The notes beneath the pieces are model-generated. The model made no database searches. It saw only the letters and a program-made list of their open reading frames with translations, and was not told where the DNA came from. DNA of 64,000 bases from positions 1 to 64,000 of the forward strand of contig NZ_SPHY01000004.1 of the NCBI RefSeq assembly GCF_004796535.1, written 5' to 3'. This DNA is from Sphingomonas flavalba. GTDB lineage: Bacteria > Pseudomonadota > Alphaproteobacteria > Sphingomonadales > Sphingomonadaceae. Position numbers and translations under genes: made by a program. Shown here piece after piece: positions 6,830-27,243 of this stretch (its first letter is position 1; every line of letters begins with the position of its first letter).

Positions 6830-8425
6830 TCAGCGCGGCGCGGCGCCGAGGTCGTTGATCCGGCCGAGCAGCGCTTCGAAGGTCGAGGGCGCTGCGCCAT
6901 GCCAGGTGCGTTCCGCGACGACAACCATCGGCTCGAACGCTTCGCCGAGCATCCGCTCGTCCGACCACGCCTCCGCCGCATCGGCCCACAGCGCGACGCT
7001 GTAGCCGAGCACGTTTGACCCGGTGACGAAGGGTTGCGTTTCATAGACCTGCTTCGAACGGACCAGGCCGTAGCCCTGCCCGTCGAAATCGGCGATGCCG
7101 GGGACGACGTAGAGCATCTCCTCCGGCGAGACGATCACCCGGTAGCCGCTGGCGAGGATGTCACGCAGGCGCGGCGCGTTCCACGTCTCGATGACGATGT
7201 CGGTGCTCGGCTCGATCGTCGTCCGGTCGTCCTTGAACCGCCACCAGTTCCAGATGACCGTGGTCTTGCCGTGCTTGCGGACCAGCGCGTTGGTCTCGTT
7301 GATCCAGTCGACGAACACGTCGCCCGGCGTGGCGAGGCCGCGCTGCTTCGCCGCCGCGACCAGTTCGGGGCAGCGGGTCTTGTCGGCGTCATATTGATAT
7401 TCGTCGCCGCCGATGTGGAAATACGGCCCGCTAAACCACGGGATGAACTCGCCGAGCAGCCCGGCCAGCCAGGCGCGGTTTTCGGCGCGGGTGATGTCGA
7501 CCGTCCATGCCAGATCGGCGGCGCGATCGCCGGCCGCCCGGCTCAGCCATTCCGACTGGCGCATCGACGGGCATTGGAAGGCAAGCGACGGGCGATGGCG
7601 GATCAGCGCTGCGGCATGGGCCGGCAGGTCGATTTCCGGAATGATCGTGATGTGCAGTTGGCGGGCGAGCCGCTCCAGCCGCGCGATGTCGGCCCGGTCA
7701 TAGGCGCGCGCGTCGGCCAGGCCGGGATAACGGTCGGAGCGGAGGCGGAAAGCCGGCCAGTCGGTGAAATGCAGATGCAGCGTGTTCATCTTCATCCACG
7801 CCATCCGGCGCATCAGCGCCTCGATCTGGCTGACCGCGTAATATTTACGGCCGACGTCGAGCATCATCTGGCGCATCGGATAGGCAGGCCAGTCGACGAT
7901 GGTGCCGCGCGGCAGGGTGGCGGATCCCGGCGACCGGCGCAGCAGTTGGAGCAGGCTCTGCCCGGCATAGAACAGCCCCGTGGCGTTCCCCGCGCGCAGC
8001 GTCGTCCGCTCGCCGACGATCAGGCGATAGGCTTCGTCGGCCGGGGCGCCGGCGGGCACCGCCGGATCGGCGACGTCGAGCACGATGTCGCCGGCGCGCG
8101 CACCAGTCGAAACGACGGGCAGGTCAGGCCCGCCGATCGCGACCAGCGCGGCGCGCAGATGGGCACCGACCTCCGCCACCCGCGCGTCGGCGCCGCGCGC
8201 CACGACGATGCGGGCGGTGCCGGCGATCGCCGCGGTGCCACCATCCGGCTGCCAGTACCGCACCGCCGGTACGATCCATTTCGCGACGTCGCTTTCCGGC
8301 GCCGGCGGGGTCTGCGACTGCGGCGGCAACTGCGCCGCCGCGCCGCCCGGTGCGACGGCGGCAACCAGTCCCGCCGCAAGGGCAATCGCCATCCGCCGGG
8401 CGGACGTCCGGATCTCGATCAGCAT
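6830..8425 (-). CDS. Beta-N-acetylhexosaminidase, GH20 (531 aa)
   Basis: Releases terminal GlcNAc or GalNAc from glycans or chito-oligosaccharides. A signal peptide (residues 1-31, AIALAAGLVAAVAPGGAAA) is followed by a GH20b-type N-domain (about 50-175) and the TIM-barrel catalytic domain. The catalytic HIGGDE motif is at 337-342, with the Asp-Glu pair used in substrate-assisted catalysis. LHLHFTDWPAFR (about 216-227) and EIDLPAHA (about 264-271) are also typical. The ATG at 8425 lies 11 bases beyond the stop of the TonB receptor gene, so the two are cotranscribed. A TTG further upstream would add five residues. It is the gene that best marks the amino-sugar theme of this island. Confidence 0.92.
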   Translation of the reverse strand: MLIEIRTSARRMAIALAAGLVAAVAPGGAAAQLPPQSQTPPAPESDVAKWIVPAVRYWQPDGGTAAIAGTARIVVARGADARVAEVGAHLRAALVAIGGPDLPVVSTGARAGDIVLDVADPAVPAGAPADEAYRLIVGERTTLRAGNATGLFYAGQSLLQLLRRSPGSATLPRGTIVDWPAYPMRQMMLDVGRKYYAVSQIEALMRRMAWMKMNTLHLHFTDWPAFRLRSDRYPGLADARAYDRADIARLERLARQLHITIIPEIDLPAHAAALIRHRPSLAFQCPSMRQSEWLSRAAGDRAADLAWTVDITRAENRAWLAGLLGEFIPWFSGPYFHIGGDEYQYDADKTRCPELVAAAKQRGLATPGDVFVDWINETNALVRKHGKTTVIWNWWRFKDDRTTIEPSTDIVIETWNAPRLRDILASGYRVIVSPEEMLYVVPGIADFDGQGYGLVRSKQVYETQPFVTGSNVLGYSVALWADAAEAWSDERMLGEAFEPMVVVAERTWHGAAPSTFEALLGRINDLGAAPR

Positions 8426-8436
8426 CGTTCGCCCCG

Positions 8437-11229: not shown

Positions 11230-11328
11230 AGCCCCCTTCCCAATCGCGCGGCACCGCCGGCCGCTGCCCGGTTGCACCGCCCGACGCCGGACAGGCGCGG
11301 ACGTCGGTGCACCGACATATTTGTAGCC

Positions 11329-12056: not shown

Positions 12057-12911
12057 TCAGGGCAGCGCACTGATCCTGACCCAGTCGACATACAGGTGGG
12101 CGACGTCGACGGCATAGTCCATTCCCGGCCAGGGCGCCGGCCAGGCGCCGACCCAAAGTTGCGGCGGGTCCGTGCCGACATGCGCCGTCGTCGCCGCCTG
12201 CCATACGCCGTCGACATACCAGTCGATCCGCGTCGTTCCGTCGACGCCGTCGCGCCAGTCGAAGCGATAGACATGGAAGCGCCCGTCGAACGGGTCGATC
12301 GGCGCGGCGTGGCTAATCATCGTCGCATCCGCGTCGGCGTCGCTGCGGCTCCAACTGTTCAGGCCCAGCATCCGGCGCCATTCCGCCCATGCCGGCGGTA
12401 CCGGGGTGACATGGGCGGGCACCTCGATGTCGATCTCGGTATAGCGGCGCGCCGCCGGCGGCCGCGCGTTATTGTCGCTGCCGTAGTAATTCCAGATGCA
12501 GGAACAGCCGTGCGGCCCCGGCAGGTTCCGCATGCGGACCTCGTACCGGCCACCGCCATAGCGCTGCCGGGTGATCAGCACGCCGCCCTGCCGCCGCGCC
12601 CCGCGATGCCTGTCGCCGAAGATCTGCGCTTCGACGACGGTAACCGGCGCACCGTCATCGTCGGCAATCGTCCGCAGCGCCAGATTGCCGGGCCTGACCG
12701 GGTATTTGCCAGCGATCTTCAGGTCGGCGCGACGCCATTTCGCGGCATCGATCGCCGGCCCGTCAAAATCATCACAGGACAGATAGGCGCCGGCACAGGC
12801 CCCGGCCCCAGCCACGGCCGGCGCGGCGGTCAGCCCGACCAGCACCACGCCGCAGCCCAGCCAGCACCGCCCGGCGGCAGTTCCGGCGCATGATGTAGCG
12901 TCGACCGGCAT
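12057..12911 (-). CDS. Secreted glycoside hydrolase, GH16 (284 aa)
   Basis: Endo-acting beta-glycanase fold. A hydrophobic signal (residues 18-37) is followed by a beta-jelly-roll. The GH16 catalytic motif ExDxE is visible as EIDIE (Glu159 nucleophile, Asp161, Glu163 acid/base). GGRYEVRMRNLPGPHG and a late WYVDGVWQ are also typical. Two cysteines near residues 39 and 46 and two near 136-138 could pair outside the cytoplasm. The ATG at 12911 follows AAGGGG; an ATG at 12947 would add 12 residues before the signal. GH16 covers laminarinases, agarases and endo-beta-galactosidases, and the substrate cannot be told from this sequence. With GH20 next to it, a GlcNAc-containing polymer such as poly-LacNAc or keratan type is possible. 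Confidence 0.82.
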   Translation of the reverse strand: MPVDATSCAGTAAGRCWLGCGVVLVGLTAAPAVAGAGACAGAYLSCDDFDGPAIDAAKWRRADLKIAGKYPVRPGNLALRTIADDDGAPVTVVEAQIFGDRHRGARRQGGVLITRQRYGGGRYEVRMRNLPGPHGCSCIWNYYGSDNNARPPAARRYTEIDIEVPAHVTPVPPAWAEWRRMLGLNSWSRSDADADATMISHAAPIDPFDGRFHVYRFDWRDGVDGTTRIDWYVDGVWQAATTAHVGTDPPQLWVGAWPAPWPGMDYAVDVAHLYVDWVRISALP

Positions 12912-12986
12912 CGCGTCGCCCCTTTTCCGAAATATAAGACAACCCATTGCGTTACAACGGGAACACCGGATACCGTCCCCGCAATA

Positions 12987-13001: not shown

Positions 13002-13070
13002 TTTATCGCCTTGGCGAGTCAAGGTTCATGTAGTAAAGTGAGAGGGGCGGATATCCGGGAAGGAGCTTGC

Positions 13071-13958
13071 GTGAATCCGACGGCCAGCCCGGATTATATC
13101 GCGATCGATTGGGGCACATCGCGGCGGCGGGCCTATCGGGTCGATGCGGCGGGGCGGATCCTCGCGAGGATCGAGGATGATTGCGGCGCGCGCTCGGTCG
13201 CCGCCGGCGGCTATCCAGCGGTGCTCGCCGGGCTTCGCGACGCGCTCGGCCCCCTGCCGGTCATCGCCGCCGGCATGGTCGGCTCGCAGCTCGGCTGGCA
13301 ATCGACCCCTTATCTCTCCGCCCCGGTGACACTGGCGGCGCTGGCCGGCGCGGCAACGCGGGTGACGGCGGAAGACTGCACCCTCACCCCCGGCGTGTCG
13401 CTGGACGCGGCGGAAGGCTGCGACGTGATGCGCGGCGAGGAGATACAGGCGCTTGGCGCCGCCGCCGCTGGCCTTGTCCCGCCCGATGCGCTGGTCTGCC
13501 AGCCAGGCACCCACAGCAAGTGGATCACGCTGGCCGATGGGCGGATCGCGACCTTCCGCAGCGTGATGACCGGGGAATTGTTCGCCCTGCTGCGCGGCGA
13601 CGGGTCGCTGGCGATGCTGCTCGACGGCCCGGTTGCAGTCGGGGTGGCGTTTCGCGACGGAGTCAGCGCCGGGGCGGCGGCGCGCAGCCTGGGCGCGGCG
13701 CTGTTCGGCACGCGCGCGGCGGTGCTGCTCGGCCGGTTGCCGGTGGGCAATGCCGCCGCCTATGCCAGCGGCGTGCTGATCGGCGCCGAAATCGCCGGCG
13801 AGCTGGGCGACGCGGCGGGCACTGTCTACATCATCGCCGACGACCGGCTCGGCGCACTCTATGCGGAAGCGATCGGACTGCTCGGCGGCGCGGCCGTCCG
13901 GGTCGATTCGCATACCGCCTTCGTCGCCGGCATCCACGCCTTGCAGGCATCGCTATGA
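13071..13958 (+). CDS. dgoK: 2-dehydro-3-deoxygalactonokinase / KDG-type kinase (295 aa)
   Basis: Phosphorylates 2-keto-3-deoxy-galactonate (or the gluconate epimer) at C6, making the substrate of the aldolase encoded immediately downstream. Family signatures are AIDWGTSRRRAY at 11-22, TPGVSLDAAEGCDVMRGEE at about 106-124 and CQPGTHSKW at 143-151. Length is normal for DgoK. The start is a GTG at 13071, chosen because GGAAGGAG lies six bases upstream; earlier in-frame codons have no ribosome-binding site. Its stop overlaps the ATG of the aldolase (ATGA). In this context it could serve galactose (De Ley-Doudoroff) or the KDG formed from glucosaminate. Confidence 0.9.
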   Translation: MNPTASPDYIAIDWGTSRRRAYRVDAAGRILARIEDDCGARSVAAGGYPAVLAGLRDALGPLPVIAAGMVGSQLGWQSTPYLSAPVTLAALAGAATRVTAEDCTLTPGVSLDAAEGCDVMRGEEIQALGAAAAGLVPPDALVCQPGTHSKWITLADGRIATFRSVMTGELFALLRGDGSLAMLLDGPVAVGVAFRDGVSAGAAARSLGAALFGTRAAVLLGRLPVGNAAAYASGVLIGAEIAGELGDAAGTVYIIADDRLGALYAEAIGLLGGAAVRVDSHTAFVAGIHALQASL

Positions 13959-14596
13959 GCGACGCACTCGCCCGCTTCACCGCCGCGCGCCGCGTCTGCC
14001 CGCTGATCGCCATCCTCCGCGGGGTAACAACGGCCGAGATCGACGGGGTCGCGGCGGCGCTGATCGAGGCCGGCATCGGCCTGATCGAGGTGCCGCTCAA
14101 CTCACCCGATCCGTTCCGCACGATCGAGCGGCTGGCGACGATCGCCGGCAACCGCGCTGTCATCGGCGCTGGCACCGTGCTGAGCGCCGACGCCGCGCGC
14201 CGAGTGCGCGACGCCGGCGGCCAGTTGATGGTCGCCCCCAACAGCGATCCGGCGGTGATCGCCGCCGCCGTCGCCGCCGGGCTGGTCGCGGTGCCAGGCT
14301 ACATGACCCCGTCGGAAGCGTTCGCGGCGCTCGCCGCCGGCGCCCACGCGCTGAAGCTGTTCCCTGCCGAAGCCGCGACCCCGGCGGTGCTGCGCGCCCA
14401 GCGCGCGGTGCTCCCGGCGCAGCTTCCGGTGTTTGTTGTCGGCGGCGCGTCGGCGGCGACAATGCCCGGCTGGCACGCCGCCGGGGCGGACGGCTTCGGC
14501 ATCGGCTCGGCGCTCTACCGGCCGGGCAAGCCGCTTGACCGGATCGCGGCAGATGCCGCCACTCTGGTCGCCGCCGCCCGCGCCCTCAGCCGCTAA
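13955..14596 (+). CDS. dgoA: 2-dehydro-3-deoxy-6-phosphogalactonate/gluconate aldolase (213 aa)
   Basis: Splits KDPGal or KDPG into pyruvate and glyceraldehyde-3-phosphate. Class-I aldolase residues are visible: Glu45 in IEVPLNSP, VIGAGTVLS at 69-77, and the Schiff-base Lys134 in LKLFPAE. VVGGASAATMPGW and GFGIGSALY form the phosphate-binding end. PLNSP, where KDPG aldolases usually have TLRT, favours the DgoA subgroup. It is translationally coupled to dgoK by a 4-base overlap. The stop (14594-14596) overlaps the stop codon of the convergent sulfotransferase gene. Confidence 0.9.
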   Translation: MSDALARFTAARRVCPLIAILRGVTTAEIDGVAAALIEAGIGLIEVPLNSPDPFRTIERLATIAGNRAVIGAGTVLSADAARRVRDAGGQLMVAPNSDPAVIAAAVAAGLVAVPGYMTPSEAFAALAAGAHALKLFPAEAATPAVLRAQRAVLPAQLPVFVVGGASAATMPGWHAAGADGFGIGSALYRPGKPLDRIAADAATLVAAARALSR

Positions 14597-15285
14597 AGGG
14601 GGAAGGCATAGCGATAGCGCTCGATCACCGGCGCGTCCTGTGCCGCCACCAGCGCCCGCAACGGCGCGTCGTAATAGGACGCGACATCGGCGTGGCGGCT
14701 GCGGTTCATCGCCGGTGCCTGGTCGATATACAGCCGGGCGAGCGGCGGCATGTCGGGCAGGCGGCGGCCGAGATAGGCGGACAGCCCGGCACGCAAATCC
14801 TCGGCCGGCAGGATCGCCGGTTCAACCGCGCCACGATAGAGCCGGTCGTGGAGGAAGGTATAGAAGCCAAGGCCCGATCCGCGCAGCCCTTCGATGCACG
14901 ACCGGGTCAGGTTCAGGCCATGACCGACGAACTGCTCCGGGAGGGCGGCGGCCAGCCGGTCGATGCGGTAATCGTCCTGGTGCAGGCGCAGCAGATTGGC
15001 GGTGGTCGCGGCGAAATCCAGCGTACCGCCCTCGCTGCACACCTCGAACAAGGCATTGCGGCGGTTGAGGCCGGACTGGAAAGCGAACCAGCTGACGTAA
15101 TAGGCGTAAGGGTTGCGGACGGTGCCGAGCACCGGCAGGCCTCGCAGCGCGTCCGGGCACATGGCATAGGGCAGGTGATAGCCGATCTGCCGCGCACCGG
15201 CGATGCAGCGCAGCAGCAACTGGTTGACGAAGGTGCCGCCGGATTTGTGCAGGTGAAGGAACAGGAAATGGTCGCAGGCGATCAT
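14593..15285 (-). CDS. Sulfotransferase-family protein (230 aa)
   Basis: Short PAPS-dependent sulfotransferase-like protein. LFLHLHKSGGTFVNQ near the N-terminus matches the 5'-phosphosulfate loop (PxxGxTxx type, as in the sulfotransferase-2 group). LGTVRNPYAYYVSWFAF (about 76-92) matches the 3'-phosphate motif with Arg and Ser. No signal peptide or membrane segment is seen. The start at 15285 is 32 bases from the divergent TPR-sulfotransferase start, so the two probably share a promoter. The acceptor is unknown. The position between the kinase/aldolase pair and the deacetylase operon suggests a role linked to the glycan island, but that is inference. Confidence 0.72.
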   Translation of the reverse strand: MIACDHFLFLHLHKSGGTFVNQLLLRCIAGARQIGYHLPYAMCPDALRGLPVLGTVRNPYAYYVSWFAFQSGLNRRNALFEVCSEGGTLDFAATTANLLRLHQDDYRIDRLAAALPEQFVGHGLNLTRSCIEGLRGSGLGFYTFLHDRLYRGAVEPAILPAEDLRAGLSAYLGRRLPDMPPLARLYIDQAPAMNRSRHADVASYYDAPLRALVAAQDAPVIERYRYAFPL

Positions 15286-15317
15286 CGCGCCCCGCTCCCC
15301 CGCCCCGGCCGCGCCGC

Positions 15318-16898
15318 ATGACCCGGGCGACACCGCCCCCGGCCGCGATCGACGCGGCGCGCACTGCGATCGTCGAGGGGCGGATCGTCGCGGCGCGCGC
15401 CGCCGTCGACCGACTGATCGCCCGTTGGCCGGACTGCGCACAGGCGCATTTCCTCGCCAGCCGCCTCGCCGCCGTGACTGGCGACCCGGCCCGCGAGATG
15501 GAGGCTCTCGCCCGCGCCGCCGCGCTCGATCCGACCGATCCGCTGCCGCCCGCTTTCCTCGCCCGCCTCCATGCCCGGGCGCGGCAGGTCGAGCAGGCGC
15601 TGGCGCTCGCCCGTCAGGCTGAGGCGCTGGCCGGGACCGACGCCATCGCGCTGGACGCAGTCGCCACTGCCTTCGCTCAGTGCGGGGAGCATCGCGCGGC
15701 GCGGGACGCTCTGGCCCGCGCGGCGGCAGCCGGGTCGCTGAACCCGGCGGTGCATTTCAACCTCGGCACCCAGGCGAAGTTCCTCGGCGCGTTCGACGAG
15801 GCGCGCGCCGCCTACGAAACCGCGATCCGGATCGCGCCGGACTATCACAAGGCCCATGCGGCGCTGACCTCGCTGGGCGGGATGACCGCAACCGACAACC
15901 ATCTCGACCGGCTGCTGCCGCTGATCGCGGCAACGCCCGATCCGCGCCGACGCATCCATGTCGTCCACGCCGCCGCGCGCGAACTGGAACAGATCGGCCG
16001 CCATGATGAGGCGTTCACGCTGCTGGCGCGCGGCAAGGCGGATCTGCGCGCGGTACTGCCGCCGGAACCGGTCCTGCCGCCGCCGGTGGAGGCGATCGCC
16101 GCCGCCGTCGACGCCACCGCGCTGCCCCCGGCGGAGGATGATCCGGACGGTCCGATCTTCGTTGTCGGCATGCCGCGTTCCGGCACCACCGTCGTCGACC
16201 GCATCCTGTCCGGCCACCCCCGCTGCCGCTCGCTCGGCGAGCCGATGCACGCCGCCGCGATCCTGCGCCGCGCGAGCGGAAGCACCGGCCGCGCCCTGCT
16301 CGACCAGCCGATGCTCGATCTGCTGGCGCGTAGCAAAAGCCTGGTTGCGCTGGGCGACGCCTATCGCGCGCTTGCGCGCGGGCGGGACGGCCCGGTGGTT
16401 CACCGCACGATCGACAAGATGCATCTGAATGTCCTGCTGGTCGGCCATATCATGGCGATGCTGCCGGGGGCGAGGGTGGTCTGCCTGGTCCGCGACCCGC
16501 TCGACACCGTCGCCAGCAATTTCCGGCAACTGTTCGAGTTCGACAGCCCGATCTACCGCTATTCGCTGGATATCGAGGATACGGCGCGCTTCGTCATCGC
16601 CTTCCGCGCGCTCGAGCGGCTGTGGCGGGACCGCTTTCCGGACCGCTTCCTCAGCATCCACTACGAGGATCTGGTGCGCGATCCCCGCGCCGGAACCGCC
16701 CGCCTGCTCGCCTTCTGCGGTCTCGGCTGGGACGAGGCCTGCGTCCATATCGAACGCAACGCCGGCGCGGTGACGACGGCCAGCGCCGTGCAGGTGCGCC
16801 AGCCGATCAACGCGGCGTCGGTCGGCGCCTGGCGCCGCTATGCGCGGCAGGTCGAGCCGGCACGCCGCCTGCTCCACGCCGCCGGCTATGCGGACTGA
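15318..16898 (+). CDS. TPR-repeat sulfotransferase (526 aa)
   Basis: The N-terminal half (about 1-230) is built of Ala-rich helical pairs that read as tetratricopeptide repeats (for example HFNLGTQAKFLGAFDEARAA). The C-terminal half is a sulfotransferase: IFVVGMPRSGTTVVDRILSG (about 278-297) is the PAPS 5'-phosphosulfate loop, and CLVRDPLDTVASNF is the 3'-phosphate motif. Such fusions are common near TonB receptors in sphingomonads and caulobacters, and their substrates are undefined. The gene is divergent from the shorter sulfotransferase and overlaps the end of the D-aminoacylase gene by 13 bases tail to tail. Confidence 0.88.
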   Translation: MTRATPPPAAIDAARTAIVEGRIVAARAAVDRLIARWPDCAQAHFLASRLAAVTGDPAREMEALARAAALDPTDPLPPAFLARLHARARQVEQALALARQAEALAGTDAIALDAVATAFAQCGEHRAARDALARAAAAGSLNPAVHFNLGTQAKFLGAFDEARAAYETAIRIAPDYHKAHAALTSLGGMTATDNHLDRLLPLIAATPDPRRRIHVVHAAARELEQIGRHDEAFTLLARGKADLRAVLPPEPVLPPPVEAIAAAVDATALPPAEDDPDGPIFVVGMPRSGTTVVDRILSGHPRCRSLGEPMHAAAILRRASGSTGRALLDQPMLDLLARSKSLVALGDAYRALARGRDGPVVHRTIDKMHLNVLLVGHIMAMLPGARVVCLVRDPLDTVASNFRQLFEFDSPIYRYSLDIEDTARFVIAFRALERLWRDRFPDRFLSIHYEDLVRDPRAGTARLLAFCGLGWDEACVHIERNAGAVTTASAVQVRQPINAASVGAWRRYARQVEPARRLLHAAGYAD

Positions 16899-18376
16899 TC
16901 CGGCGGCGCGGCGCGCGGCTGGCGGCGCAGGAAGCGGCCGGCGCGCGTGCCGGTGCCCTCGCCGCGCCGCCAGCTCAGCCGGCCGTTGACGAAGACCAGA
17001 TCTATGCCCCGGGCGATCGCCTGCGGCACGTCGTAAGTGGCCGTATCGGCAACCGACGTCGGGTCGAACACCGTGATATCCGCCGCCATGCCGGGGGCGA
17101 TCACCCCCCGATCGGCCAGCGCGAAGGTAGCCGCCGAAAGCCCGGTCATCCGGTGGACCGCCTGTTCGAGGGTGAACAGGCCTAGCTCGCGCGTGTAGCG
17201 CCCCAATACCCGTGGAAAGGTTCCCCACAGCCGGGGATGCGGCAGCGGATCAACCGGCAGCCCGTCGGAGCCGATCATGCAGCCGTCATGAGCGATGATC
17301 CGCCGCATGTCGTCCTCGTGGATCTGGAAATAGCTGGCGCCGCCGGGTGCCAGCCGGCGTGCCGCCGCCGGCTGGTCGCATCCCCATTCGGCGGCGATGT
17401 CGGCCAGTTGGCGCCCGGCCATTTCCGGGTGCGGTTCCGACCAGTTGATCAGGATCTCGATCTTGCCGTCGGCCAGGTCGTCGCGGATGATCGTCGACCC
17501 GGCGGTATAGGGATAGCAGTCAAGCAGCACCGGCTGCCTGATGCGGGCGGCGTCGATCAGGCCAAGCGTCTCGACCGAGCGTCCCCAATTCTGGACGCCG
17601 GCGCATTTGTGGTGGGATATGACCAGCCTTACCCGGTCCGGCCCGGCGATCTCGAACGCTTCGTCGAGCGCGGCGGCGACCTCGTTATATTCGTCGCGGA
17701 TATGGGCGGTGTAGACCGCTTCGGCCGCCGCCAGCGCCCCCATCAACCCGCGCAGCTCGGCGATGTCGGCGGCGCGGGCGGGCGAATAGAACACGCCGGA
17801 GCTGAGGCCCAGCGCGCCGTCGCGCAGCGCATCGGCCAGGAGCGCGCGCATCGCGGCGATTTCCTCGGCGCCGGCCGGGCGGTCGCGCGCCGCCATGCAG
17901 GCCAGCCTCAGCGTCGAATGGCCGATCAGCGCGCCGACATTGACCGCCGGCCGGGTGCGGTCGACCGCGGCGGCATAGTCGGCAAAACCGGGAAAGGTGA
18001 AGCGGTCGGCGTCGCCAAGCAGGTTGAACGGTTCCGGCACCGCCGCGTCGAAGCGCAGATGGGTGGCGGAAATGCCGCAATTGCCGACGATCACGCTGGT
18101 CACACCCTGGCTCAGCTTCGCCGTCATCTCCGGCGCGGCCAGGCAGGCAAGGTCGTCATGGGTGTGGACGTCGATGAAGCCGGGGGCAACGGCAAGGCCG
18201 CGCGCGTCGATCTCGCTCGGCGCGGTCATTCCGCCCAGCGCGCCGACCGCGACGATCCGGTCGCCGGCGATCGCCACGTCGGCGACGACCGGCGCGCTGC
18301 CGAGTCCGTCGACAACGGTGCCTCCGCGCAGGATGATATCAGCCGATTGCCCGTACGCCACCCGACGATCCCTCAA
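16886..18376 (-). CDS. D-aminoacylase-family amidohydrolase, candidate N-acetylglucosaminate deacetylase (496 aa)
   Basis: Metal-dependent N-acyl hydrolase of the N-acyl-D-amino-acid deacylase family. Motifs are GFIDVHTHDD (His71, His73), VIVGNCGIS (Cys100, the family's bridging ligand), YTAHIRDE and VISHHKC, the later His ligands, then IGSDGLP. It is the last gene of a five-gene operon. Its TTG start overlaps the preceding TGA (TTGA), and a GTG at 18361 is an alternative. Known members remove acyl groups from D-amino acids. With the neighbouring PLP deaminase-like enzyme, SDR, KDG kinase and aldolase, I infer that it removes the acetyl group from N-acetylglucosaminate. Confidence 0.85.
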   Translation of the reverse strand: MRDRRVAYGQSADIILRGGTVVDGLGSAPVVADVAIAGDRIVAVGALGGMTAPSEIDARGLAVAPGFIDVHTHDDLACLAAPEMTAKLSQGVTSVIVGNCGISATHLRFDAAVPEPFNLLGDADRFTFPGFADYAAAVDRTRPAVNVGALIGHSTLRLACMAARDRPAGAEEIAAMRALLADALRDGALGLSSGVFYSPARAADIAELRGLMGALAAAEAVYTAHIRDEYNEVAAALDEAFEIAGPDRVRLVISHHKCAGVQNWGRSVETLGLIDAARIRQPVLLDCYPYTAGSTIIRDDLADGKIEILINWSEPHPEMAGRQLADIAAEWGCDQPAAARRLAPGGASYFQIHEDDMRRIIAHDGCMIGSDGLPVDPLPHPRLWGTFPRVLGRYTRELGLFTLEQAVHRMTGLSAATFALADRGVIAPGMAADITVFDPTSVADTATYDVPQAIARGIDLVFVNGRLSWRRGEGTGTRAGRFLRRQPRAAPPDQSA

Positions 18377-19671
18377 AAACAGGTCCGCAGGCCGACGACG
18401 ACGGTGAAAGCATCGTCCACCTCCAGCAACAGCGGCCAGCGATCAAACGTCGTGCACGGGTGCGATATGCCGAGGATCACGACGTCGCCGACCGCGATCG
18501 CCGGCGCGCTCGGCCCCAGCCGCAGGAAGGCGTGCTGGTCGCTGAGGCTGAACACCGCGCCGTCGTCGAAGCGTTCGGGTGCGGCGTGGTGGCCGGGGCG
18601 GAACCAGCGGTCGGCCACCGGCAGGTCGATATCGAAGGACAGATCGCGCTTGCCCGCCGACAGGATTGCCAGATCCGGCTCCGGCCGGCTCAGCACCCGC
18701 GCCCACAGCTCAAGCGCTGGGGCAAGCGCCGGCGGTGCCCCGCTCGTCGCGCGCGCGCGCGCTTGGTCGTGATGGCGGGCATAGAAGCCGTGGTCGTGCG
18801 CGACGTAGCAGCCGCTGCGGATGACGACACGCGCGCCGTCCAGCCCGGACCGCGCCAGCCGGTCGACGACCATGTCGTAATAAACCGACCCGCCGGCGCT
18901 GAGGATGACGCCGCCCGCGACATCGAACAGCCCTTCGGCGGCGATCGCGCCGGCCGCCGCGCAAACGCTGTCGAGATAGCGCTCGGTCGCGGCCGGGTCG
19001 GCGCTGCCGTCGGCGGCAAGCAGCAGCCCTTCATACCCCTCGATCCCGCGCAGCGACAGGCGGTCGAGGCGGCGGACGTGCGCGGCCAGCGCCAGCGCGG
19101 CATCGATCGAGCGGACACCGCAGCGGCCGCCGGCGAAACCGATCTCGACCAACACCTGCGCCGGTCCGGCCCCGCCCGCGCGGGCGAAGGCGGCCTGCGC
19201 CTGATCGGCGCCGGCGATCGAATCGACCAGGAAGATATACTCCGCCGCCGGCCGCTCCGCCGCCATCCGCGCCAGCGCGTCAAGCTCGGCATCGCCGACC
19301 ACCTCGTTCGCGATCAGCACGCGGTCGACGCCGGTCGCATGGCATAGCGCCAATTGCTGGACGTTGGCGACGGTGATCCCCCATGCTCCCGCGTCGATCT
19401 GCCGCGCGAACAGCTCCGGGCACAGCGTCGTCTTGCCGTGCGGGGCGAGCAGCGCGCCGCGCTCGGCAAGATAGCTCTGCATCGCGGCGATATTGGCCGC
19501 GACATGCGATCGTCGCAGCACCGCCGCCGGCAACGGCACGTCCCCGCGCAGCAGGTTCCAGCCGCGCCCGGCGATGTCGGCGGCGGCGAAGCCGGCTGGC
19601 AGGCCGGGGGGCAGCCCCTTGGTTCCCGGCGGCAACGGCGCCCGGCGCAGCGGGTCGAGAGCAAGCGGCAT
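18373..19671 (-). CDS. Fold-type III PLP enzyme (D-serine dehydratase/D-threonine aldolase family), candidate glucosaminate deaminase (432 aa)
   Basis: The alanine-racemase-type N-terminal barrel carries LLAPHGKTT with PLP-binding Lys80. The C-terminal domain ends in GISHPCTTFDRW, the His-x-Cys metal site found in eukaryotic-type D-serine dehydratases. Other typical stretches are VEIGFAGGRCGVRS and RSGCYVAHDHGFY. The family eliminates ammonia from beta-hydroxy D-amino acids. D-glucosaminate is itself a 2-amino-3-hydroxy acid, so deamination to 2-keto-3-deoxygluconate would be the matching reaction in this island. Its start overlaps the SDR stop (TGATG), and a Rid protein is encoded in the same operon. 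Confidence 0.82.
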   Translation of the reverse strand: MPLALDPLRRAPLPPGTKGLPPGLPAGFAAADIAGRGWNLLRGDVPLPAAVLRRSHVAANIAAMQSYLAERGALLAPHGKTTLCPELFARQIDAGAWGITVANVQQLALCHATGVDRVLIANEVVGDAELDALARMAAERPAAEYIFLVDSIAGADQAQAAFARAGGAGPAQVLVEIGFAGGRCGVRSIDAALALAAHVRRLDRLSLRGIEGYEGLLLAADGSADPAATERYLDSVCAAAGAIAAEGLFDVAGGVILSAGGSVYYDMVVDRLARSGLDGARVVIRSGCYVAHDHGFYARHHDQARARATSGAPPALAPALELWARVLSRPEPDLAILSAGKRDLSFDIDLPVADRWFRPGHHAAPERFDDGAVFSLSDQHAFLRLGPSAPAIAVGDVVILGISHPCTTFDRWPLLLEVDDAFTVVVGLRTCF

Positions 19672-20453
19672 CAGAAGCGCTCCAGCGTCAGTTCGGCTGC
19701 CATCACCGGGTTGCCGGCGGTCAGCCCCGCGTCGACCGGCAGCACGACGCCGGTGATCATCCGCGCCGCATCGCTCGCCAGGAATTCGGCGGCGGCGGCG
19801 ATGTCGGACGGGTCGGGGAAGTCGCGCAGCGGATACCATTTGCGCAGCGCTGTGAAGATATCGGGGTTGCGTTCCGCCCGGGCGTTCCACGCCTGCGTCC
19901 GCACCGTGCCGGGGCAGATGATGTTCGCCCGGATGCCAAGCGGCCCGTATTCGACCGCCAGCGCGCGGGTATAGCTGATAAGCCCGGCCTTGGCGGCACT
20001 GTAGGCCGGGTGGCCAAGCGCGTGGAAGGCGTTGACCGAGCCGATATTGACGATGACGCCGGCACCGCGCGCGATCATCGCCGGCTTGACCGCCTCGACG
20101 CAATGGTAGGCGGCGGTGAGGTTGATATCCAGGTCTTGCCGCCACGCTTCCGGCGTCAGGTTGGCGAGCGCGGTCGCCGCCGCCGCGCCGGCATTGTTGA
20201 TCAGCACATCGACCGGGCCGTGCGCGTCGGCGAAGGCACTGACCGCCGCCGCCACCGCCGCCGCATCGAGCAGGTCGACGACGGTAGGATGGACGAGGCC
20301 GGGACGCCGGGCGGCGAGCGCGGCAAGGCCGGCCTCGTCGACGTCAAGCGCCAGCACGCGCGCGCCGCGATCGGCGAAATGGGTGCACAAACCGGTGCCG
20401 ATGCCGCCGGCCGCGCCAGTGACCAGGATATTGCGTTGCTGCGTCGATGTCAC
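19671..20453 (-). CDS. Short-chain dehydrogenase/reductase (260 aa)
   Basis: Classical SDR. It has the NAD(P) loop VTGAAGGIGTG at 11-21, Asp near residue 37 (ALDVDEAG) favouring NAD(H), NNAG near 86, a catalytic Ser in NIGSVNAF and YSAAK for the Tyr-Lys pair. The substrate is not visible from sequence. Within this operon the simplest role is C1 oxidation of GlcNAc (or a related sugar) to the aldonolactone or aldonate that the amidohydrolase and PLP enzyme then process. Translation is coupled on both sides by 3-4 base overlaps. Confidence 0.88.
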   Translation of the reverse strand: MTSTQQRNILVTGAAGGIGTGLCTHFADRGARVLALDVDEAGLAALAARRPGLVHPTVVDLLDAAAVAAAVSAFADAHGPVDVLINNAGAAAATALANLTPEAWRQDLDINLTAAYHCVEAVKPAMIARGAGVIVNIGSVNAFHALGHPAYSAAKAGLISYTRALAVEYGPLGIRANIICPGTVRTQAWNARAERNPDIFTALRKWYPLRDFPDPSDIAAAAEFLASDAARMITGVVLPVDAGLTAGNPVMAAELTLERF

Positions 20454-21622
20454 CGAGCAATCTCCCCGAAGGCCGCGACCGCACGCTCGACCCAGTCCAG
20501 GCTGGCGGTCGGCAGCAGACCGAAATTGTAGAAGGACAGGTCGCGCAGCCCCGCCCCGGTCACGCGCTCCAGCGTCGCATCAAGCTGCGCGGCGCTGGCC
20601 ATGTCCGGCGGCCCCGGCCGCAGAATCGCGCTCGGCGTCACCCCGTCCGGCAGCAGGCCCAGCACATAGCGCAGGTCGTCCGCCACCGCGTCGGGCGTCG
20701 GCTGGTAGAGCGGCAGTTCCAGCCCGTCGGTCACCGCCGCGATGGCGGCCAGATCGTGCCCTTCCCAGATCGCGGCGGCGTGCGGCCGCTGGCAGGTGGA
20801 AATCACCCTGACTGCAACCGCCGCCGGCACCGCCGCCCGGATCTCGGCGCACAAACCGGTGACGACGGTGCAGCGCCAGCCGAGATAGCGCTGGATGCAG
20901 TCGTCGGCGATCAGCGCGCGCGACCGGGCCTCGGCCGCTTCGGAGCTATCGCCCAGCGCGTCGGCCAGATGGCCGGCGACGACGTGGCGCAGCGCTTCCG
21001 CGTCGATGCCGGCGGCGCCGGCCGAGCCCACGCAATGGCGGCAGAAGCACAGGCCGAGCAGCGCCGCCGTGGCCGGCCCCACCTCCACCTGCGCGAATTC
21101 ATGGTGATAACCATGGGCGAAGGCCAGCCAACCGGGGCTTTCGAGGAGCAGCGCCTGCACGCCATAGCCGCGCGCCAGATCGGCGCAGAGCGTGACGGCA
21201 TAATGGCGCACCTCCGGGTGGGCCGGGCACAGGCTGTACGGATAGGGGTCGCCGAACGCGTTGCGCGCCACCGCGTCCGGGTGCTGCCAGCCGAGCCGGC
21301 TGTTGTGGTTCAGCACCGTCCACGCGCGGATCGGCATTATGTCGGCCGCGCACAGATCGGCCAGCGTGTCCTGCGCGACAGTGGTCGTGGCGACGCGGGG
21401 CGACAGCAGGCCGTAATCGGCGCGCGCCGGATGGAAATAGACCGTCCCGTCCTCCGGGAAATAGACGCGGGCGCGCGGATCGCGCGGCTGCACGAACTTG
21501 CCGGCATGGTAGCTGGCCGCAACCGTCAGATGGCCAAGCCCCGCATCCTGCATGTGCCGCAGCTCGTCGCGCGGCGCGTGCAGGTTCCACGGATAGGCGT
21601 AATAGCCGAAGCTTGCCGTCAT
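20450..21622 (-). CDS. Uncharacterised protein, probable TIM-barrel, with CxC-x2-C cluster (390 aa)
   Basis: I cannot name this family. The N-terminus FGYYAYPWNLHAPRDEL and repeated beta-strand/helix units resemble glycosidase-like TIM barrels. ALLLESPGWLAFAHGYHHEF (about 159-178) looks like an active-site strand with Glu and His residues. CFCRHC (near 197-202) could bind a metal or form a disulfide. ELPLYQPTPDAV and FYNFGLLP are near the C-terminus. No signal peptide is seen. It lies inside a fully overlapping operon between RidA and the SDR, so it should act in the same pathway. A lactonase, epimerase or other step on the oxidised amino sugar would be plausible but is not shown. Confidence 0.8.
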   Translation of the reverse strand: MTASFGYYAYPWNLHAPRDELRHMQDAGLGHLTVAASYHAGKFVQPRDPRARVYFPEDGTVYFHPARADYGLLSPRVATTTVAQDTLADLCAADIMPIRAWTVLNHNSRLGWQHPDAVARNAFGDPYPYSLCPAHPEVRHYAVTLCADLARGYGVQALLLESPGWLAFAHGYHHEFAQVEVGPATAALLGLCFCRHCVGSAGAAGIDAEALRHVVAGHLADALGDSSEAAEARSRALIADDCIQRYLGWRCTVVTGLCAEIRAAVPAAVAVRVISTCQRPHAAAIWEGHDLAAIAAVTDGLELPLYQPTPDAVADDLRYVLGLLPDGVTPSAILRPGPPDMASAAQLDATLERVTGAGLRDLSFYNFGLLPTASLDWVERAVAAFGEIAR

Positions 21623-22011
21623 CGGCGGCCGTCGGGCTGGTAGGCAATCGCATCCATCTCGATCTTGCCGTCGACCATCAGCGCCGACTGGACGCACGAC
21701 CGCGCCGGCGGCGCATCGCCGAAATAGCCGGCATAGACACGGTTGAACGCCTGGAAATCACGCGGATCGTCGAGCCAGACACCGACCTTGACGACATCGG
21801 CCAGCGTGCAGCCCGCTTCTTCGAGGACGGCAATGACGTTGCGCATCGTCTGGTGGGTCTGCGCGACAATGCCGCCGGGTACGATCTCGCCGTCCGCGTC
21901 AAACGCCACCTGCCCGGAAACGAATACGAAATCGCCGGCGCGGGTCGCGCGACTGAACGGCAGCGGCTGGCCGCCCGATCCGGTGCGCGTGCCGCCAATC
22001 CTCTCGATCAT
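21619..22011 (-). CDS. RidA-family imine/enamine deaminase (130 aa)
   Basis: YjgF/YER057c/UK114 family. Rid proteins hydrolyse the reactive enamine/imine released by PLP dehydratases. The family Arg is present in PPARSCVQ (about 102), and IEMDAIAY near the C-terminus replaces the usual VEIEAIA. It is the first gene of the operon that also encodes the fold-III PLP enzyme, which fits a partner role in releasing ammonia. The RpiR-like operator at 22102-22116 lies 91 bp before the start. The stop overlaps the next start (TGATG). Confidence 0.9.
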   Translation of the reverse strand: MIERIGGTRTGSGGQPLPFSRATRAGDFVFVSGQVAFDADGEIVPGGIVAQTHQTMRNVIAVLEEAGCTLADVVKVGVWLDDPRDFQAFNRVYAGYFGDAPPARSCVQSALMVDGKIEMDAIAYQPDGRR

Positions 22012-22116: not shown

Positions 22117-22279
22117 TTCATCGTTACACCGGCAACGGTATAGCGCCATCCGCTCGTTCCACGGCGGAAATCCCCGGCACACCCCGGCGCGGCCCTGGCG
22201 CTCCGCGCAATCGCTTGTCACGACGCAGATGGGGTCGCCCCCACAAAAGGCGGTTGCGGTCGGGTTGGAAACGTGCAAA

Positions 22280-22297
22280 TGTAACAAAGCTTCTACA
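22280..22297. promoter_or_regulatory. Possible second RpiR half-site pair upstream of rpiR
   Basis: TGTAAC and TCTACA arms, six bases apart, end 33 bp before the rpiR start. The arms resemble the TGTA/TACA ends of the main operator but the spacing differs (18 bp in total), so this is only a tentative autoregulatory site. Confidence 0.2.
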
Positions 22298-22330
22298 AGA
22301 GGGGGTTGCGCGACAACCCGGAGAGAGACG

Positions 22331-23278
22331 ATGCTCGGGGATACCGTGGACAACGATCTGCTCGGCAAAATCGAGGCGGCGATACCGGGGATGAGCCGAT
22401 CGGACGTCAAGATCGCCAAGCTGCTGCTTGCCTCGCCGCACGCCTTCATCCGCTCGAGCGTCCGCGAGATCGCGTCGGAGATCGGGATCAGCGAGCCGAC
22501 CGTCGTCCGCTTCTGCCGCAATGTCGGCTGCGAGGGGTTCAAGGACCTGAAGTTCCGGATAACCCAGGAACTGGCCGTGCTGCAGGCGCAGCGCGATTCC
22601 ACCCTGCCGATGCCGGAACGGCGCCCGCCGGCGGCCGCGACCGCCGCGTCGGGCACCGGCGACGCGAAGATCGCCCCCGGCGAAGCCTATGCCGCACACT
22701 TGCATGCGCGGGCGGTGCAGGCGATCGACAGCGCGCTTGCCGAGATCGATTTCAGGCAACTGGAGCTGGCCGCCGGCATGCTCGCCCGCGCCCGCCGCGT
22801 CGCGATCTACGGTTTGGGCGGCAGTTCGGCGATCATGGCGGAGGAAATGCACAACCGCCTCTATCGGTTGGGCATCGCCTCGGTCTTCGTCGGCGAAAGC
22901 TATACCCAGCGGATGCTGGCCGCGACGCTGACGGCGGAGGACGTGGCGATGTTCGTCTCGTCGACCGGCCGGCCGCGCGCGCTGCAGGACAGCCTCGACA
23001 TCGCCCAATATTACGGCGCCCAGTCGATCGCGATCACCGACAACGACAGCCGACTTGGCCGCGATGTCGACGTCTGCCTGAAGGTCGGCCTGTCGCAATC
23101 CGGCGTCAACGAATTCCAGCCGAATCCGATGCGTTACAGCCAGTTGTTCGTCATCGACCTGCTGGCGTTCAAGGTCGCCGACACGCTGGGCGACAAGGCC
23201 CGGCAGGTGCTGCGCCAGACACGTGCCAGCGTCGCATCGCTGCACGGCATCGCGCCGCAACAACCGATCGGCGACTGA
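22331..23278 (+). CDS. RpiR/HexR-like transcriptional regulator (315 aa)
   Basis: N-terminal RpiR HTH (about 1-80): SRSDVKIAKLLLASPHAFIR followed by ISEPTVVRFCRNVGCEGFKD, the classic recognition segment. The C-terminal SIS domain (about 130-280) starts RRVAIYGLGGSSAIMAEEMH and contains SSTGRPRALQ, which binds phosphosugars. HexR, the best-known relative, senses KDPG, the very product expected from the kinase encoded here. Start ATG 22331 follows GAGAGAG. It probably represses the GH/TonB, dgoKA and ridA operons through the palindromes at 11335, 12987 and 22102. The MFS gene follows 48 bp downstream on the same strand. Confidence 0.88.
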   Translation: MLGDTVDNDLLGKIEAAIPGMSRSDVKIAKLLLASPHAFIRSSVREIASEIGISEPTVVRFCRNVGCEGFKDLKFRITQELAVLQAQRDSTLPMPERRPPAAATAASGTGDAKIAPGEAYAAHLHARAVQAIDSALAEIDFRQLELAAGMLARARRVAIYGLGGSSAIMAEEMHNRLYRLGIASVFVGESYTQRMLAATLTAEDVAMFVSSTGRPRALQDSLDIAQYYGAQSIAITDNDSRLGRDVDVCLKVGLSQSGVNEFQPNPMRYSQLFVIDLLAFKVADTLGDKARQVLRQTRASVASLHGIAPQQPIGD

Positions 23279-23326: not shown

Positions 23327-24641
23327 ATGGGGGTGGGGATGCGCGAAACGCCGCAGGAAATCCGTCCAGGCCGGCCCGGCGCCGCCGGCGCGCCGCAGGA
23401 CGGCATCTCGCTGAAGCTGGCGATGACGATCATCGGCGCGTTGTTCTTTGTCTTCGGCTTCGTCACCTGGCTGAACGGGCCGCTGATCACCTTCGTCAAA
23501 CTCGCCTTCACCCTGACCGATTTCGAGGCGTTCCTGGTGCCCTCGGTCTTCTACATGTCCTATTTCGTGCTCGCCCTGCCCGCCGCCTGGCTGCTCCGCC
23601 GCACCGGCATGAAGAACGGCATGGTCATTGGCCTGCTGACGATTTCGGCCGGCGCACTGCTGTTCGGGCAATTCGCCACCCACCGCTGGTTCGGCGGGGC
23701 GCTGGCCGGGCTGTTCGTCATCGGCGGCGGCCTCGCCGTGCTGCAGACCGCTGCCAACCCCTATATCGCCATCCTCGGCCCGATCGAAACCGGCGCCCGG
23801 CGGATCGCGATCATGGGCATCTGCAACAAGACGGCGGGGATGCTGGCGCCGATCGCCTTCGGCCTGCTGGTGATGCGCGGCATCGGCTCGCTGCAAGCCC
23901 GCCTCGATGCCACCGCCCCGGCGGCGCGGGCCGCGCTGCTCGACGAATTCGCGCAGAAGATCTACTGGCCCTACATCGCGATGGCGGTCGTGCTCGCGGT
24001 GCTGGCGCTGCTCGTCCACCGCTCGCCGCTGCCGACGCTGGAGGCCAAGGTCTCTGTCCCCCCAGCCGACGGCATGACGTCGATCTTTCGCCATCGCCAC
24101 CTCGTCCTCGGCGTCGTCGCGCTGTTCATGGCGATGGGGGCGGAGGTGATGGCCGGCGACGCGATCGGCACCTACGGCGCCGCCTTCGGCCTGCCGCTCG
24201 AACAGACCGCCTACTTCACCTCCTTCACCCTGGCGGCGATGTTGCTCGGCTATATCGCCGGGCTGCTCGCCATCCCGCGCTTCGTGTCGCAGGAACGCTA
24301 TCTGGCGCTGTCGGCGCTGGCCGGAATCGCCGCGGTCGCAAGCGCCTACCTGACGACCGACTACGTCTCGGTCGGCTTCGTCGCCGCGCTCGGCTTCGCC
24401 AACGCGATGATGTGGCCGGCGATCTTCACCCTCGCGGTGCGCGGGCTGGGCCACCAGACCGAAACCGGCGCGGCGATGCTGATCATGGCGATCAGCGGCG
24501 GCGCGGTGATCCCGCAACTGTTCGCCGCGCTGATCCCCCATGTCGATTTCCAGGCGGTTTTCTCTGCGATCATGCTGCTGCTTTATCTGTATATCGCCTA
24601 TTACGCGCTGCACGGCTGCCGCATCGCCGGCGCACGTCCCG

Positions 24642-24664
<23 letters not shown>
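23327..24664 (+). CDS. MFS sugar transporter, FucP/glucose-galactose/GlcNAc type (445 aa)
   Basis: Inner-membrane sugar:proton symporter with 12 predicted segments. FVFGFVTWLNGPLI at the first helix and LQTAANPYIAILGP near helix 5 are the hallmarks of the FucP/GluP/NagP group. The loop between helices 6 and 7 is long, as usual. ATG 23327 or ATG 23339 (after GGGGGTGGGG) could be the start. It probably imports the monosaccharide freed by GH20 or GH16. The last 23 bases overlap the tail of the convergent CobW gene, an unusually long 3' overlap. Confidence 0.88.
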
Positions 24665-25629
<965 letters not shown>

Positions 25630-25640
<11 letters not shown>

Positions 25641-27219
25641 GCACGACCCGGCCTTCGAAGACCGTCAGTTCGACCTTCGTGTGTTCGATCGCCGATACCG
25701 GCACCTCGAACAGGTTGCGGTCGAGCACGATGAAATCGGCCGACTTCCCGACCTCGATCGATCCGGCGACAGCCCCCAGCCCCACCGCCTGCGCGCCGGC
25801 CAGCGTCAGCATTTCCAGCGCGCGTTCCAGCGACACGGCCTCCTTGCCATGCTGCAACACCCCTTGCAGGGCCGGGAAAAGATTGGGTTCGGGCAGGAAG
25901 ATCCAGTCCGTGCCGAGCGTGATTCGGGTGCCAAGCGCTGCCAGCGACGCGAACGGATAGCCCCGTTCCCTAAAGGCGGCGAGTTCCGGCGCATCGCCCA
26001 CCCAGACCGGCGGCGACATCTCCGCGGTGACGTTCAGGTCAGCGAAGCGCTTCAGGTCGTCCGCATTGACGAAGCAGCAATGGCTGACTTCCTGGATCGT
26101 CTCGCACGCGCCGCTGGCGCGCGCATCCGCTATCGCCTGCAGCACGCGCTGGACGGCGGCGTCGCCGGTGCAATGGATCTTGGCGGTGATCCCGGCCCGG
26201 TCCCATGCCTTCAGCGCCTCCGCCAGCACTTCGCGTTCGAACAGCAGCTTGCCCGGCACCGGCATGCCGGTTTCCGGGTCGAGTTGCGCGTCGGTGAAGT
26301 GCGGGGCCAGCGGCGTGCCGTCCATGAACACCTTGACGAAATCGGTGCGGACGTTGCGGCCCGAATAGGCATGGCGCCCGGCGATCAGGCGGTCCAGCTC
26401 CTCGCTGGTCGCCATGCCGAAATGCTCTTCGCGCCAGGGAATATGCGCCGCGACCCGCATCGGCAGGCTGCCGTCCTCGTCGAACGCCTTCAGGAATTCC
26501 AGTTCCGGTCGGGTCGCGGACGCCTCCTGCGCCGACGTGACGCCGAACCGGCTGGCGGTCTTCAGCGCCCATTTCAGCGCGTCGCGATAGATATCGGGGT
26601 CGCGCTGCGGAATGACGTTGACGACTTTCCACGTCGCCCGCTCGACCAGTTCGCCGGTCGGCTCGTCGCTGCCTTCGCGGCGGACGATGCGCCCGCCGAA
26701 CGGGTCCTCGGTCGCCGCGTCGATGCCCGCCAGCTCCAGCGCGCGGCTATTGGCAAGGCCGTGATGGAGCGACCAGTCGGTGAGGAAGACCGGGCGGTCG
26801 GGGAAAGCCTCGTCCAGGAATTTCCGGTCGACGGTTCCCGGCTCGGACAGCAACTGGTTGAAATCGCCGCCGATCACCCAGTCGCCCAGCTTGCCGCCCA
26901 TGCAGCGCACGCATTCGCAGAGCTGGCCGGCGTAATCGGTCGCTTTCGCGTCCGGCGACAACCGGCATTCGTAGAGGTTCTTCAGGCCGCTGAACAGCAG
27001 GTGCGAATGAGCATCGTGGATGCCCGGCATCGCCATCCGCCCACCCAGGTCGACAACCTTCCCGCCGGCGCCCAGCGCCGCGCTGATGTCGGCGGACGAG
27101 CCGACGGCAGCGATCCGGCCGTCCCGTACCAGTATCGCCTCCGCCCAGGGTCGGGCGGCATCCACCGTGTAGATGCGCCCGTTCACATAGGCCGTCGGCA
27201 CCGGGTCGTTGTCGCTCAT
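25630..27219 (-). CDS. YtcJ-type metal-dependent amidohydrolase (529 aa)
   Basis: Composite TIM-barrel amidohydrolase of the YtcJ/amidohydrolase-3 family. PGIHDAHSHLL (about 65-75) carries the first metal HxH, and TDWSLHHGLANSRAL is typical of the family. KIHCTGDAAVQRVLQA and TLGTDWIFLPEPN give the later ligands. Natural substrates of the family are mostly unknown. Start ATG 27219 gives MSDNDPVPT; earlier in-frame codons are less likely. It lies between the truncated TonB receptor and the CobW gene on the same strand and is probably cotranscribed with both. Confidence 0.85.
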
Positions 27220-27243
27220 CGGCTCTGTCCCCACCGAAAATCG

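Follow-up and report, generated by a model that had tools for sequence, protein, structure and literature searches.

The described system that comes closest to the locus analysed here is the ong cluster of Pseudoalteromonas, which acts on oxidised chitin. According to the excerpted text of its report, a D-aminoacylase-like enzyme deacetylates GlcNAc1A and a fold-III PLP enzyme carries out the deamination that leads to KDG; the pathway requires a RidA protein, and an RpiR repressor governs the cluster (PMC9537276). A second report, also excerpted, describes the pathway as working without a lactonase, GlcNAc1A equilibrating unaided with its own lactone (PMC12017989).

We compared this cluster with the window, i.e. 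the whole stretch of 64,000 nucleotides of Sphingomonas flavalba DNA that was analysed. The ong-type set of deacetylase, fold-III PLP deaminase, RidA and RpiR regulator is complete and lies together in the window and, as far as the excerpts describe the ong cluster, both systems have a D-aminoacylase-like deacetylase, a fold-III PLP deaminase, RidA, an RpiR regulator, a GH20 protein and a kinase. The window differs in adding an SDR oxidoreductase and a 390-residue protein, hereafter the orphan protein; its transporter is of the MFS type, as against SSS in the ong cluster, and its kinase and aldolase are of the galactonate type. In the ong gene list contained in the excerpts (PMC9537276), the orphan protein has no counterpart. 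From its predicted structure, its conserved residues and its gene neighbours, we tentatively read it as a cytosolic enzyme of the glycosidase superfamily which most likely cleaves an imported amino-sugar glycoside, a reading that we hold to be quite possible, if somewhat short of probable.

The five-gene run and its surroundings

The orphan open reading frame is a real gene. It occupies positions 20450 to 21622 of the minus strand (390 codons, ATG at 21622, stop codon ending at 20450), is present in single copy in its own genome and is second in a head-to-tail run of five, all on the minus strand. It follows the gene of a RidA family protein of 130 amino acids (21619–22011) and precedes those of an SDR oxidoreductase (19671–20453), a fold-III PLP enzyme of the D-serine deaminase type whose nearest solved structure is 3gwq (18373–19671), and a D-aminoacylase-like amidohydrolase matching D-aminoacylases and PpOngB (16886–18376). 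An earlier reading made from the letters alone (the sequence-only reading) had reported 4-base overlaps on both sides of the gene, and these are present: ATGA (21619–21622) is shared with the RidA stop codon and GTGA (20450–20453) with the SDR start. Further overlaps of 1 base and 4 bases join the SDR gene to the PLP gene and the latter to the D-aminoacylase-like gene. These overlaps suggest, and no more than suggest, that translation of the orphan gene is coupled with that of its neighbours; the synthesis in fixed ratio that the sequence-only reading deduced from them goes beyond this. In addition to the open reading frame, the overlaps, an AlphaFold2 model and a fold ranking, the gene is documented by residue conservation beyond chance, with 15 residues kept without exception in 47 aligned rows of homologues that are 24–47% identical to the orphan protein.

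Divergent from the run, on the plus strand, lie the genes of a MurR/RpiR family regulator (22229–23278) and of an MFS transporter related to NagP and to glucose-galactose transporters (23327–24664). At 24642–27234, the gene of a CobW-family GTPase and that of another amidohydrolase (PF07969), unrelated to the first, overlap on one strand; the two may form a metal-supply pair. Three minus-strand genes encode a GH20 family hexosaminidase (6830–8440) with an N terminus that looks like a signal peptide by eye, a TonB-dependent receptor (8437–11277) and a GH16-like protein (12057–12947). That the window already encodes an exported-looking GH20 protein speaks against a second glycosidase in the cytosol. 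NagA, the usual deacetylase of HexNAc-6-P, had no match over the cut-off in the genome of the window.

Also close to the run, on the plus strand, are the genes of a 2-keto-3-deoxygalactonate kinase (DGOK, 13011–13958) and of a 2-dehydro-3-deoxy-6-phosphogalactonate aldolase (13958–14596; NF006600, over the NCBIfam cut-off). Both types, the 2-keto-3-deoxygalactonate kinase among them, are likewise found near the orphan homologues of Leeia and Sapientia, which is a hint of a galacto-configured substrate. In the interval between the aldolase gene and the operon (14593–16898), a Pfam-less protein, sulfotransferase-like by eye, faces a TPR-sulfotransferase fusion encoded on the opposite strand.

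The match to the ong pathway, together with the neighbours of the homologues in distant lineages, bears out the earlier description of an amino-sugar operon. Its last steps do not resemble those of chitin breakdown, the kinase and the aldolase being of the galactonate type. To judge from these genes, the operon probably degrades an N-acetylated amino sugar, and the orphan protein is probably an uncharacterised enzyme of that pathway. It had also been called the only unassigned protein of the operon, which does not hold, the substrates of the SDR and of the D-aminoacylase-like protein being equally unassigned. The latter protein has 9g5m, named 'Amidohydrolase family protein', as its best PDB match and fits cleanly none of the specificity residues of OngB, AfDam or BbDam. 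Read through an alignment of D-aminoacylases, the place of OngB Ser292 would be taken by Thr, and a polar residue, Asp, would lie near that of Gln298. Its substrate may be another N-acyl acid.

Predicted fold and family kinship

AlphaFold2, run on 20 sequences, predicted a (beta/alpha)8 barrel with a pLDDT of 90.8 and a pTM of 0.92, so that the TIM barrel proposed by the sequence-only reading was recovered. In the fold ranking (Foldseek, VIA-align), glycoside hydrolases came out on top, with Z-scores of 20 to 26; since all 1000 of the 1000 chains compared reached a Z of at least 5, it is the ranking that counts, the barrel alone being generic. The top structural match was the GHL10 protein Cwp19 (Z 26.3, rmsd 3.0, 288 residues aligned), followed by PgaB (Z 25.3, rmsd 3.2, 315 aligned), the alpha-L-fucosidase 6tvk, which we take to belong to family GH151 (Z 23.7), the GH42 enzyme 1kwg (Z 22.1, rmsd 2.9, 293 aligned) and GH156 (Z 21.3). 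GHL10 (PF02638; Cwp19 and DigH/YddW) and the C-terminal domain of PgaB have the same barrel as the orphan protein (Z 25–26), and the substrates of PgaB and Cwp19 are given in the excerpted text as amino-sugar polymers (PMC5765458).

In sequence searches, nothing exceeded the cut-off in Pfam or NCBIfam, and no credible relative was found among PDB sequences with either single-sequence or profile searches, in line with the earlier statement that the protein has no nameable family. The sole Pfam hint was GHL10, which scored 12.3 bits where the cut-off is 27.9; weak GHL10 matches were obtained for 7 of 20 family members among hits listed to E 1 (best E 4.8e-4), and a search with GHL6 returned sub-cut-off matches only. 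Comparison of the family profile with seven GHL10 proteins gave 85.5% over 83 columns covering strands 3 to 4 (E 5.7e-6), whereas the same comparison forced to whole length (global) gave only 31%. In a run together with eight other profiles, GH42 included, the GHL10 profile, there made of eight rows of which one was faulty, reached 63.6%, as against 4.8% or less for the others; the hhalign comparison with GH42 was negative with two rows (6%) as well as with ten (4.8%). The orphan family is weakly linked to GHL10 by these sequence comparisons.

Compared with GHL10, the orphan protein has a Cys cluster, lacks an export signal, is set in a catabolic operon and scores under the Pfam cut-off. In the model, barrel strand 1 sits at the very N terminus and thus leaves no space for a signal peptide; with an N terminus opening directly on this strand, the protein is predicted to be cytosolic. 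The model points to an uncharacterised variant inside a known enzyme superfamily, which would be distantly related to the GHL10/PgaB/GH42 group. Against a glycosidase stand, at this level, the GHL10 similarity below the cut-off, the low global alignment, the negative GH42 comparison and the generic nature of the barrel.

Conserved residues on the active-site face

The residues invariant in 47/47 homologues, drawn from bacteria and haloarchaea (locus L012, with too short a row, is absent from the 47-row tree), are Y38, H39, P46, P75, W101, H106, N107, C132, P133, E161, H174, C192, R250, G288 and Y306. In the model, H39 follows strand 2, H106 follows strand 3, E161 (codon 21140–21142, minus strand) is the last residue of strand 4, and Y306 follows strand 6. 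H39, W101, H106, N107, E161 and Y306 are placed by the model at the C-terminal strand ends or immediately beyond them, on what is the active-site face of barrel enzymes, and the end of strand 4 is where glycosidases keep their catalytic acid. The strand-7 nucleophile is absent, the place being held by R335 in the window protein and by L, T or S in the others. With no strand-7 Glu the classical retaining mechanism cannot run, which weighs against the glycosidase reading, and a classical clan-A retaining glycosidase was discarded. In the glycosidase reading E161 would be the general acid; for lack of this nucleophile, cleavage would be inverting or substrate-assisted, with His106, His39 or His174 as partners.

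In Cwp19, according to the excerpted text, the region around strand 3 contains Trp127 and Arg132, while strand 4 carries Asp196, strand 6 Tyr297 and strand 7 Gly328 (PMC5765458). Both proteins have Trp at strands 1 and 3, Tyr after strand 6 and no strand-7 Glu, W101 and Y306 occupying the places of Trp127 and Tyr297 by strand order and, for W101, also by profile alignment. By strand order Asp196 becomes E161, and there are further differences: Arg132 is replaced by H106, five residues past the Trp in both proteins, Gln77 by H39 and Gly328 by R335. For the Cwp19 residues covered by the excerpts, the model suggests that the frame of the sugar pocket is kept, with Glu for Asp and His for Arg.

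The GH42 beta-galactosidases (1kwg) resemble the orphan protein in their fold and in the acid ending strand 4, and 1kwg also has one Cys before strand 4 and a CxCx2C after it. They differ in the strand-7 Glu nucleophile (MEQQPG in 1kwg), which the orphan protein lacks. The CxC-x2-C cluster that the sequence-only reading had picked out is C192-F-C194-R-H-C197 (codons 192–197, CFCRHC, 21032–21049, minus strand), and with C132 (21227–21229) it resembles the Cys cluster of 1kwg, which binds metal. On the grounds of this likeness and of its completeness in 38/47 homologues, the cluster is probably a structural metal site. Of the 47 homologues, nine lack C194, and in seven of the nine C197 is gone too, for which reason the CxCx2C as a whole was rejected as catalytic. 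The losses fall in loci L081, L082 and L084–L090, from one alphaproteobacterial order, where the remaining invariant residues, C132 and C192 included, are retained. A Glu/His-rich strand had been noted as well; the motif exists, as FAHGYHHE at residues 168–175, but it forms a low-confidence loop after strand 4 (residues 171–176 under pLDDT 50) and not a strand. Within it, codons 170–175 (HGYHHE) span 21098–21115 of the minus strand and include the invariant H174.

GH156 is an inverting sialidase with an Asp14/His134 active-site pair (PMC6811678). Besides the fold, it resembles the orphan family in an Asp just after strand 1 (43/47 homologues) and possibly in its active-site His, several His being invariant in the orphan family and thereby candidates, at the level of sequence, for the His acid. 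It differs from the window protein, which has Asn13 in the place of the Asp (codon 21584–21586, minus strand, just past barrel strand 1), and none of the neighbours examined was a sialic acid gene. Only in the window protein is position 13 an Asn, three haloarchaeal homologues having Thr or Arg there, so that D13 was dropped as an indispensable base. This N13, set against D in 43/47, counts against a glycosidase and, like the missing strand-7 nucleophile, would suit a non-catalytic, sugar-binding glycosidase relative kept in a regulatory or chaperone role in the pathway. We consider such a role very improbable: E161, H39, H106, N107, H174 and Y306 are invariant in 47/47 sequences from bacteria and archaea, which is typical of catalysis.

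That His and Glu residues on the catalytic face never vary would also be compatible with other chemistry on a monosaccharide derivative, i.e. an epimerase, an isomerase, a lyase or an unusual N-acyl deacylase, perhaps with a metal held by H39, H106, H174 and E161. In the same sense, the deacylase partner changes between loci (D-aminoacylase, PF04909, AspA-like or creatininase) while the orphan protein stays. We know of no epimerase, isomerase, lyase or deacylase activity in this fold family, and an epimerase is not required, since PLP enzymes of the D-serine deaminase type need a D-configured C2, which the gluco and galacto acids both have. We rate such chemistry as improbable.

Gene neighbourhoods of the homologues and proposed function

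A scan of GTDB genomes gave 24 loci with an orphan homologue, in proteobacteria, Streptosporangiaceae (actinobacteria), Symbiobacteriaceae and Chloroflexi, with one short match in a Nanopelagicales bin. Homologues are carried by 151 of 72,556 plasmids, 113 from Rhizobium and the rest mostly from haloarchaea, plus Alicyclobacillus. The spread is patchy (2/296 genomes of the order and 5/385 of the class to which the window belongs), and 13/22 genomes carry a homologue in one alphaproteobacterial order. Among 40 plasmid records listed, 38 call the homologue 'hypothetical protein', one has no gene there and one bears the name of a neighbour; in the Halorussus limi record, one among those opened, it is a 'putative glycoside hydrolase'. 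On a Halorussus limi plasmid (L038, 5033–17569), a distant homologue stands among genes for anhydro-MurNAc kinase, DUF1343 and NagZ, in a stretch with a peptidoglycan recognition protein and two GH18 genes, an archaeal set that looks peptidoglycan-degrading.

Within about 10 kb of the homologue, a fold-III PLP enzyme was found at 23 of 48 loci, RidA at 22, an SDR at 24 and a D-aminoacylase-like or other amidohydrolase at 24; at least one of the four was present at 41/48, and PLP enzyme, RidA and amidohydrolase together at 17/48. Not counted are L025, whose match spans 39 residues, L001 and L026, which are the window itself, and L027, which is the same gene as L083; loci shortened by contig ends (e.g. 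L002, L012, L020, L084 and L089) are scored as misses. Nor are the 48 independent, since eight loci from actinobacteria are nearly identical and another nine are closely related, all from one order. The corresponding numbers in 20 control stretches from nine genomes (15 from gene-carrying genomes, nine from the genome of the window itself) were 0, 1, 5 and 0. The association with PLP enzyme and Rid, which the sequence-only reading had named as a check, is common without being constant, and the idea that homologues always travel with both was abandoned. In the tree, the PLP association occurs in haloarchaea (one locus), rhizobia, actinobacteria and the clade of the window and, being present in several separate branches, spans deep ones. 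A single PLP subtype used as query was absent in 24/26 genomes, other subtypes being missed, for example next to the homologue in G461. In Haloferax and Haloarcula, the place of the PLP enzyme is taken by a mandelate-racemase-like enzyme together with an SDR and RidA, Haloferax adding a kinase and an aldolase. In the haloarchaeal clusters L033 (12007–17578) and L032 (11998–15640), this racemase-like enzyme, encoded beside RidA, might catalyse an ammonia-releasing dehydration by other chemistry.

As a count, the excess of SDR genes over the controls carries little weight; what supports it is proximity, an SDR lying within about 205 bases of the homologue at 18/48 loci. In the alphaproteobacterial order with 13 carriers, the nine loci sampled all have an adjoining SDR and neither a PLP enzyme nor RidA within reach; in two of them a D-aminoacylase-like gene lies about 2.4 kb off. 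These nine loci are a difficulty for the glycosidase reading. A second one comes from the transporters, of the Peripla_BP_4 type at 9/48 loci and NagP-like in the window: both usually import monosaccharides and would leave little to cleave in the cytosol.

The tight pairing with the SDR, constant in those nine loci, and the monosaccharide-type transporters at some loci favour instead an aldonolactonase, in which the pocket would hold the N-acetylhexosaminate 1,5-lactone made by the SDR, and E161 and the histidines would add water. A lost nucleophile beside a kept acid is compatible with ester hydrolysis, and hexosaminolactones are known mimics of the hexosaminidase transition state. To our knowledge, no lactonase has this fold, and 24/48 loci, among them all eight actinobacterial ones with their PLP neighbour, have no SDR match within about 10 kb. 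Other candidate lactone or lactam hydrolases adjoin the homologue, namely a PF04909 amidohydrolase in rhizobia and the creatininase family in haloarchaea and Alicyclobacillus, an SMP-30 family protein is encoded elsewhere in the genome of the window, and the ong pathway, in the excerpted account, does without a lactonase (PMC12017989). The fold, which is that of glycosidases, also speaks against the lactonase or epimerase suggested by the sequence-only reading, and we regard the lactonase as rather unlikely, yet still in contention. Glycoside cleavage accounts for loci of both kinds, those that have an SDR and those that lack one; a lactonase accounts for the close pairing with the SDR and not for the SDR-less loci.

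The activity, substrate and order of steps that we propose for the favoured glycosidase build on the predicted fold, the conservation and the gene order. The orphan protein would hydrolyse, in the cytosol, a small imported glycoside containing an N-acetylhexosamine or its aldonic acid, as the counterpart of OngA, the hexosaminidase that is periplasmic in the ong pathway. Where present, the adjacent SDR would oxidise the freed N-acetylhexosamine at C1 and feed it into the same route; SDR and orphan protein look like a front end making an N-acetylated aldonic acid. The operon would then turn this acid into a keto-deoxy acid through deacetylation by the D-aminoacylase-like protein and RidA-aided elimination of ammonia by the PLP enzyme, followed by phosphorylation and aldol cleavage. 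Because the end of the route in the window is of the galactonate type, the sugar may be N-acetylgalactosamine.

In its full form, the proposal is an oxidative, non-phosphorylating GalNAc route from GalNAc through N-acetylgalactosaminate and galactosaminate to 2-keto-3-deoxygalactonate, with kinase and aldolase thereafter. It would have a rebuilt glycosidase-fold front end, its nucleophile lost and histidines gained, that acts by inverting or substrate-assisted cleavage or by lactone opening, in a new family reaching from proteobacteria to haloarchaea; as a whole, we consider it doubtful. In the literature covered (which excludes most subscription journals), no oxidative GalNAc route was found, nor was bacterial galactosaminate catabolism in titles and the openings of abstracts.

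From alpha- and betaproteobacteria to actinobacteria and haloarchaea, the family is accompanied by the same catabolic partners, and almost all of its annotations examined read hypothetical. Once its reaction is named, it would fill a gap in the microbial recycling of oxidised amino sugars, and it would put to the test the hydrolytic role of a glycosidase barrel without a nucleophile.
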